NCBI GenBank assembly: GCA_903824505.1
Contig: CAIJXG010000005.1
Span: 1-33,935, forward strand
Reading direction: 5' to 3'
DNA length: 33,935 nt
Source of the DNA: an uncultured Pseudomonadota bacterium
GTDB lineage: Bacteria; Pseudomonadota; Alphaproteobacteria; UBA9219
This document shows positions 1,462-28,585 of the stretch, one piece after another. Positions within the stretch are counted from its first letter, which is position 1. Every line of letters begins with the position of its first letter. The notes beneath the pieces were generated by a model that was not told the origin of the DNA, made no database searches, and saw nothing but the letters and a program-made list of their open reading frames with translations. A program made the translations under genes and the position numbers.

Positions 1462-1587
1462 TTACGGCATCCGTTGGCCGCCATTGACCGACAGAGTCTC
1501 ACCTGTGATGAAGGGTAGTTCCCGAGACAAAAAGATGACAAAATCAGAAGAAAATTTAGGATCTTCGGCGGCCGTTTGGATTACACC
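1462..1587 (-). pseudogene. C-terminal remnant of a short-chain dehydrogenase/reductase
   Basis: Directly downstream of the RNase J stop codon, one minus-strand frame reads VIQTAAEDPKF, then FVIFLSRELPFITGETL and SVNGGQRMP followed by a stop at 1464-1462. FITGETLSVNGG is the conserved C-terminal motif of FabG-like SDR enzymes. No N-terminal half, glycine-rich NAD(P) motif or YxxxK catalytic pair exists upstream, where RNase J occupies the DNA. This is about 40 codons of a gene whose front was replaced by, or deleted against, the RNase J region. It overlaps the RNase J stop by a few bases. Confidence 0.75.
1512..1540. repeat. 29-bp direct repeat, copy 1 (inside SDR remnant)
   Basis: Same 29 bases as 1335-1363 with two mismatches, 177 bp away. 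Here it is read in another frame as part of the SDR tail (VIFLSRELPF). Confidence 0.75.
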
Positions 1588-8660: not shown

Positions 8661-8684
8661 TATACTCGGGCCCCTTCGGAACCC
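8661..8684 (+). repeat. Partial copy of the dispersed 118-bp palindromic repeat
   Basis: TATACTCGGGCCCCTTCGG matches the first 19 bases of the repeat found whole at 9479-9596 (reverse orientation). Beyond about 8684 similarity fades, so this is a truncated or decayed copy. Confidence 0.6.
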
Positions 8685-8751
8685 AAACGTTTTGATCAGA
8701 ATAAGGAAAATCATACGGGGGAACAGGCTACCTGCAGGTGTCAATGACTTA

Positions 8752-9478: not shown

Positions 9479-9596
9479 TATACTCGCTTTCCTTGGAAAG
9501 CGGAAGGATGCGATTCCGTGCAAAACACGGACGCAGCGAAGCTGATGCGCCTTTTGCGCGGACAAAAAGGTCGGGGCCCGAAGGGGCCCGAGTATA
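9479..9596 (-). repeat. Dispersed 118-bp palindromic repeat, complete copy A
   Basis: Reverse orientation. It aligns along its whole length with 25922-26040 (clearly above 80% identity by eye). Both ends form hairpins: CGCTTTCC-TT-GGAAAGCG at 9485-9502 and a GGGCC/GGCCC stem near 9573-9592; its outer ends read TATACTCG and CGAGTATA. It fills the gap between divergent rlmE and lpxK, so it may contain or alter their promoters. No ORF of recognisable function lies inside; it resembles a REP/MITE-type element. Confidence 0.8.
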
Positions 9597-25921: not shown

Positions 25922-26040
25922 TATAATCGGGCCCCTTCGGGCCCCCTCACGTTTTATCCGGGCAAAAGGCGCATCAGCTTCGCCCTCGCGCGTGTTTTGC
26001 ACGGAATCGAATACTCGGCTTTCCAAGGAAACCGAGTATA
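25922..26040 (+). repeat. Dispersed palindromic repeat, complete copy B1
   Basis: Forward orientation, aligned end to end with copy A (9479-9596, reverse). It begins TATAATCGGGCCCCTTCGGG and ends in a hairpin, ATACTCGG-C-TTTCC-AA-GGAAA-CCGAGTAT (26011-26039). Located between divergent flhB and lptF. Confidence 0.8.
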
Positions 26041-26130
26041 CGCGGCTTCTTTGGAAAGAGGAAGGATTCTGCGCCGCGCGAAACATACGCGCAGACGCGG
26101 AGCTGATTTGCCTTTCCCTGCCGGAAAAGC
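26041..26130 (-). repeat. Diverged inverted copy B2 of the dispersed repeat
   Basis: Immediately follows B1 in the opposite orientation. TTGGAAAG.GGAAGGAT and GAGCTGAT segments align with copy A read on the plus strand; overall similarity is lower (about 70% by eye). Together B1 and B2 form an imperfect palindrome of about 210 bp. Confidence 0.6.
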
Positions 26131-28378: not shown

Positions 28379-28585
28379 GGCGTGGTGTTCCCCCTCTCCC
28401 AGAAGGACAGTCTCGACAAAGACTATACTGCGAGACGTTACAGGTTGACCTTTTTGCTTAACAACACGCGCTCTGCGTCCTGAGGACCGCTGGCCGGACT
28501 GAGGCGTTTTTTTGCTTCATCTTTTCCTGTCCGGCACGATGCGACAATCCGGCTTATTAATCCATCTTTTAGAGTCAGCCGGCTC
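28379..28585. other. Intergenic region between convergent lptG and dxr with terminator-like elements
   Basis: 207 bp without a convincing gene. GTCC-TGA-GGAC hairpin at 28477-28487; a T7 run at 28507-28513; and a perfect 7-bp inverted repeat GCCGGAC/GTCCGGC at 28493-28499 and 28529-28535 with the T run inside its loop. Probably carries the transcription stops of both genes; the exact terminator hairpin is not clear-cut. Confidence 0.4.

Follow-up and report, generated by a model that had tools for sequence, protein, structure and literature searches.

A lineage-restricted, probably IS630-type MITE with mosaic copies in the genome of an uncultured alphaproteobacterium

The window analysed here, a stretch of 33,935 nucleotides from an uncultured alphaproteobacterium, contains two full copies of a short repeat, hereafter family A, each of them separating a divergent gene pair. 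According to Pfam, the genes flanking these copies encode FtsJ/RlmE and LpxK in one case, and FlhB and LptF in the other. Pieces of family A and of two further repeat families, B and C, are also present in the window:

9479-9596 (+): full copy of family A, occupying 118 of the 156 bp that separate rlmE from lpxK, with a hairpin-bearing left end TATACTCG, a central stem of TTCCGTGCAAAA paired with TTTTGCGCGGA, and a right part made of the hairpin GGGCCC-GAAG-GGGCCC and the terminus CGAGTATA
9479-9482 (strand not given): left TATA terminus, whose first TA (TA-[TACTCG...) is the putative target duplication, as judged from nested copies
9593-9596 (strand not given): right TATA terminus, whose last TA (...CGAGTA]-TA) is the putative target duplication on the same grounds
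25922-26040 (-): full copy of family A, with a perfect left hairpin; the far end (CCATATATATAATCGG) has an additional TA
26037-26115 (+): left two thirds of a decayed A copy, 74% identity, having TATA 26037-26040 in common with the copy at 25922
8661-8694 (-): right end of family A standing alone (34 bp, query positions 85-118)
28422-28550 (+): truncated copy of family B
1547-1572 (+): fragment of family C, with the end TATACCAAGG...

The copies at 9479-9596 (+) and 25922-26040 (-) share 86% identity over their full length, which bears out the end-to-end match in opposite orientation reported in the first-pass annotation. The fragment that it had placed at 8661-8684 is likewise real, reaches 8694 and represents the right 34 bp of the unit. 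The decayed copy at 26037-26115 (+), which abuts the one at 25922, had been missed. Folding of both full copies beats that of shuffled sequences (z -3.9 and -3.7), and an Rfam scan of the window returned no family matches.

The genome is a draft of 1.897 Mb in 141 contigs. A 26-bp core of the unit occurs 105 times in it at up to three mismatches (52 forward, 53 reverse) as against no occurrence of a reversed-pattern control, and the repeat is therefore not a product of chance. A set of 112 places was compiled from stretches of the genome, of which 75 have both ends. Family A is a short non-coding unit of 118-119 bp with terminal inverted repeats (TIRs); its termini, TATACTCGG...CCGAGTATA, are sharp in nearly all of the 75 full copies, and the flanks are unrelated. 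Variants include 104-bp copies that have lost one GGGGCCCGAA unit, copies with internal deletions, hairpins standing alone, and copies truncated at the left, some of which stop at IS-like sequence that is found again elsewhere in the genome.

Gene context was assigned from gene calls made with a home-made hexamer model. On this basis, 41 of the 112 places are tandem, 34 divergent and 15 convergent, while 14 overlap an ORF and 8 are undetermined. The ORF overlaps are mostly at gene starts and look like over-extended start sites. The earlier association of the repeat with divergent junctions holds for the two full window copies but not genome-wide: copies occupy tandem, divergent and convergent gaps, and divergent junctions are therefore not special. 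Certain divergent gaps are nearly filled by the unit, that between rlmE and lpxK being an example. Three copies (L012 1630-1703; L002 1291-1377; L061 1679-1753) have the 3′ end of a tRNA gene, for Cys, Leu and Gly respectively, at a distance of 13-18 bp.

At one of the window junctions the gene order differs from that of relatives. In seven of eight congeners (L144-L151) lptF is divergent from pepA, recognised there by a sequence motif, as against flhB in the window genome, where A copies sit at the junction. A rearrangement mediated by family A at lptF was considered and rejected, since the 528 bp that the contig retains upstream of pepA in this genome are free of A copies. A synteny comparison with the genome G002 was uninformative, none of 12 gene pairs with an A copy and 2 of 14 non-adjacent other pairs being conserved.

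Families B and C nest with family A and have TATAC-type ends in common with it. Family B measures 178 bp, is TATAC-ended (CTATACTGCG...CGGTATAG), occurs at least 25 times in this genome (for example at L085 1659-1835 and L010 1118-1295) and is essentially absent from the order. Family C, which ends TATACCAAGG and has an inner palindrome, is present at three other sites (L049 1475-1548; L070 1478-1547; L118 460-506), at the last of which it runs directly into a broken IS630 transposase fragment. Beside the C fragment of the window there is a 29-bp direct repeat (93%) at 1335-1363 and 1512-1540, 177 bp apart. In addition, an IS-like repeat ending CCAGCAATTCTAAAAGTA interrupts A copies and is also seen at contig ends (L098 1-143; L099 1285-1513; L069 1-138; L097 2148-2285), and another repeat, ending TAAGGTGGCCCCACTTTGTGAGACAG, lies near or abuts A copies (L037 1252-1498; L020 1629-1874; L095 1489-1580; L055 3172-3201).

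Some A copies have their TATA in common with the terminus of another element; if such a copy had inserted into a TA target, a further TA should be present at its far end. All four nested copies of this kind (in L049, L070 and L085, and at 25922 in the window) carry it, compared to about 9% of other ends, a result expected by chance with a probability of ~6e-5. The extra TA of the 25922 copy fits an insertion of this copy into the TA that terminates the adjoining decayed copy. From these four nested sites, a small number, the TA target appears to be duplicated upon insertion of family A; the congeners are too diverged for a comparison of orthologous empty sites. No flank duplications longer than TA/TATA were detected in family A copies. 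Insertion into TA, with duplication of this target, is a property of IS630/Tc1-mariner elements (PMC2170065).

The genome contains three matches to the DDE_3 (IS630-type) transposase, two in C100 and one in C92. The IS at L109, whose product is a 373-aa DDE_3/HTH transposase, is bounded by TA-TACTCC and GGGTA-TA and interrupts an ATPase-like gene; when the IS is removed and the flanks are joined with a single TA, the frame reads through, as judged by eye from the sequence. The TIR of this IS agrees with family A only in TACYC, and it is therefore taken as a model of the presumed mover, not as the proven one. A second IS, at L114, has the TIR GTGGCTCGTATT. The draft genome, which is broken at repeats, yielded no autonomous element bearing TACTCGG ends. 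Y1_Tnp is absent from this genome and present in three other genomes of the genus.

Family A was not found in nine congeners, nor, save for two matches of ~25 nt, in 32 genomes of the order, nor in any of 384 sampled other genomes of the class at E<=1e-4; plasmid, phage and viral collections gave no match either. The first-pass annotation had named few copies in conserved positions among relatives as the finding that would speak against a dispersed family; at least 105 copies are present here and none was found in the relatives sampled. Among the genomes sampled, family A is thus, on sequence matching, apparently confined to one species. A hairpin scan of wider genome contigs gave five matches, close to chance expectation. 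One of these, in the same-family genome G021 (L038 1495-1526, on the same contig as L130), is an isolated hairpin similar to the left end of family A.

The number of copies, their sharp ends, TIRs and hairpins, the TA duplicated at nested sites and the absence from relatives, together with the presence of IS630-type transposases and the lack of a Y1 enzyme, indicate that family A is very probably a miniature inverted-repeat transposable element (MITE), presumably spread in trans by a transposase of the IS630/Tc1-mariner type. The earlier suggestion of a non-autonomous mobile element gains support from the high copy number, the ends and TIRs, the TA duplication and the restriction to one species. 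According to this model, a non-coding unit, TA-[TACTCGG...CCGAGTA]-TA, would owe its multiplication in a single alphaproteobacterial lineage to a trans-acting transposase that cuts at the TAC ends, inserts into TA and duplicates it. Such chemistry would be that of IS630/Tc1-mariner, with an IS630-type enzyme as the presumed mover. The scarcity of copies inside genes would reflect purifying selection, and after insertion the copies probably exchange sequence among themselves, because alleles within the unit are at linkage equilibrium.

Other identities can be proposed for the unit. An element of the REP/REPIN type moved by a RAYT (a Y1 HUH transposase), a route named as an example in the first-pass annotation, would likewise consist of palindromic, abundant extragenic hairpins in ~100 copies, and solo hairpins and truncated ends are indeed present. 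However, the genome has no Y1_Tnp, although three congeners do, the 118-bp unit bears no GTAG/CGTC foot, and TIRs with a TA duplication do not correspond to RAYT/IS200 chemistry, which makes this origin very improbable. Equally improbable is a unit spreading in frame through genes in the manner of Rickettsia palindromic elements. These are also palindromic, of ~100-150 bp and alphaproteobacterial, and one reading frame is open in 70 of the 75 full copies of family A; nevertheless, the copies are overwhelmingly intergenic, are not found spreading inside genes, and show few ORF overlaps, mostly at gene ends.

A regulatory element (promoter, terminator or RNA processing site), retained site by site by selection, would account for the way in which the unit takes up most of several short divergent gaps, and for the covariation of the right-hairpin arms, which occur as GGGGCCC/GGGGCCC, GGGTTCC/GGAACCC and GGGGACC/GGTGCCC and match each other in 40 out of 67 copies (p 8e-4 for the association). 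Terminator-like matches, one or two per window copy, point in the same direction. For the whole-unit fold, RNAalifold on an automatic alignment of copies gave a weak consensus only. The promoter idea receives no support from sigma-70 consensus scans of the copies, where no enrichment over shuffles was detected, and the terminator idea suits some variants and not others. Given the lack of preference for any gene context and the relatives devoid of family A, we regard site-by-site retention as improbable, and the IS630-type MITE as the best reading.

Variation among the copies is mosaic. For variants 1-5 bp apart in the 75 full A copies r2 is 0.35; it drops to 0.06-0.09 at 6-30 bp and, past 30 bp, to 0.02, as against a 1/n of 0.013. 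With allele blocks picked by eye, left-arm alleles occur with mid-block alleles in each of the six combinations, and 48 fully typed copies comprise 42 haplotypes; alleles present in at least six copies account for 80% of minor-allele instances. A few pairs of blocks more than 30 bp apart remain weakly associated (left arm versus right 3′ arm, p 0.006). Linkage decays in the same manner in 21 copies of family B. Frequent short-tract exchange between copies fits the mosaic best, and it is tentatively proposed that the dispersed copies of A and B behave as a freely recombining population, in which frequent inter-copy gene conversion over short tracts would bring variants 30 bp apart to equilibrium.

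The mosaic could instead be an artefact of metagenome assembly, or the result of recurrent hairpin-templated mutation, an account that we consider rather unlikely. The genome is a draft in 141 contigs, its flhB/lptF join differs from the pepA/lptF arrangement of most congeners, and hairpin-arm alleles restore pairing, as in quasi-palindrome correction. On the other hand, linkage is low already at 6-30 bp, a range lying within single reads and k-mers, unpaired blocks also reassort, and the nested TA pairs show that flanks were rightly joined in those copies. Assembly error is thus unlikely to explain the mosaic at 6-30 bp and might still contribute beyond 30 bp, and templated mutation may contribute in the arms. 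The quantified decay of linkage within one genome offers a simple test of the extent to which dispersed repeats in bacteria evolve by exchange as opposed to copying and drift.

The present analysis adds a lineage-restricted MITE, probably of IS630 type, from a poorly known alphaproteobacterial order, plus two nesting TATAC-ended families. Among alphaproteobacterial repeats, the CcrM-associated intergenic repeats (CIR) of Caulobacter and Brucella resemble family A in being ~110 bp long, TA-ended and intergenic, and 58 of the 75 full A copies contain one or two GANTC (expected mean 0.5 per copy). CIR have been described as lacking TIRs and as conserved between species (PMC2229807), a description that sets them apart from family A, with its TIRs, its restriction to one species and its 17 copies without GANTC. 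The Correia elements, or NEMIS, of Neisseria are TA-ended TIR MITEs that are also intergenic and have internal-deletion variants; family A differs from them in its unrelated sequence and in having no IHF site and no detected promoter signal. The accepted parallel is the pneumococcal RUP, 107 bp long and present in about 108-110 copies (PMC2229807, PMC3049150), for which IS630-Spn1 is the proposed mover. In contrast to RUP, family A is unrelated in sequence, GC-rich, built of three hairpins, unaccompanied by any matching-TIR IS found here, and located in a different phylum. Both have similar length, ~100 copies, TIRs, a TA target, an intergenic location and an IS630-type transposase in the genome. 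Family A is best read as a new lineage-restricted IS630-type MITE whose anatomy appears closest to that of RUP and the Correia elements (PMC2229807, PMC3049150). To a kind of element known from pneumococcus and Neisseria it adds the twist of a mosaic in which the copies seem to have been thoroughly reshuffled with one another.
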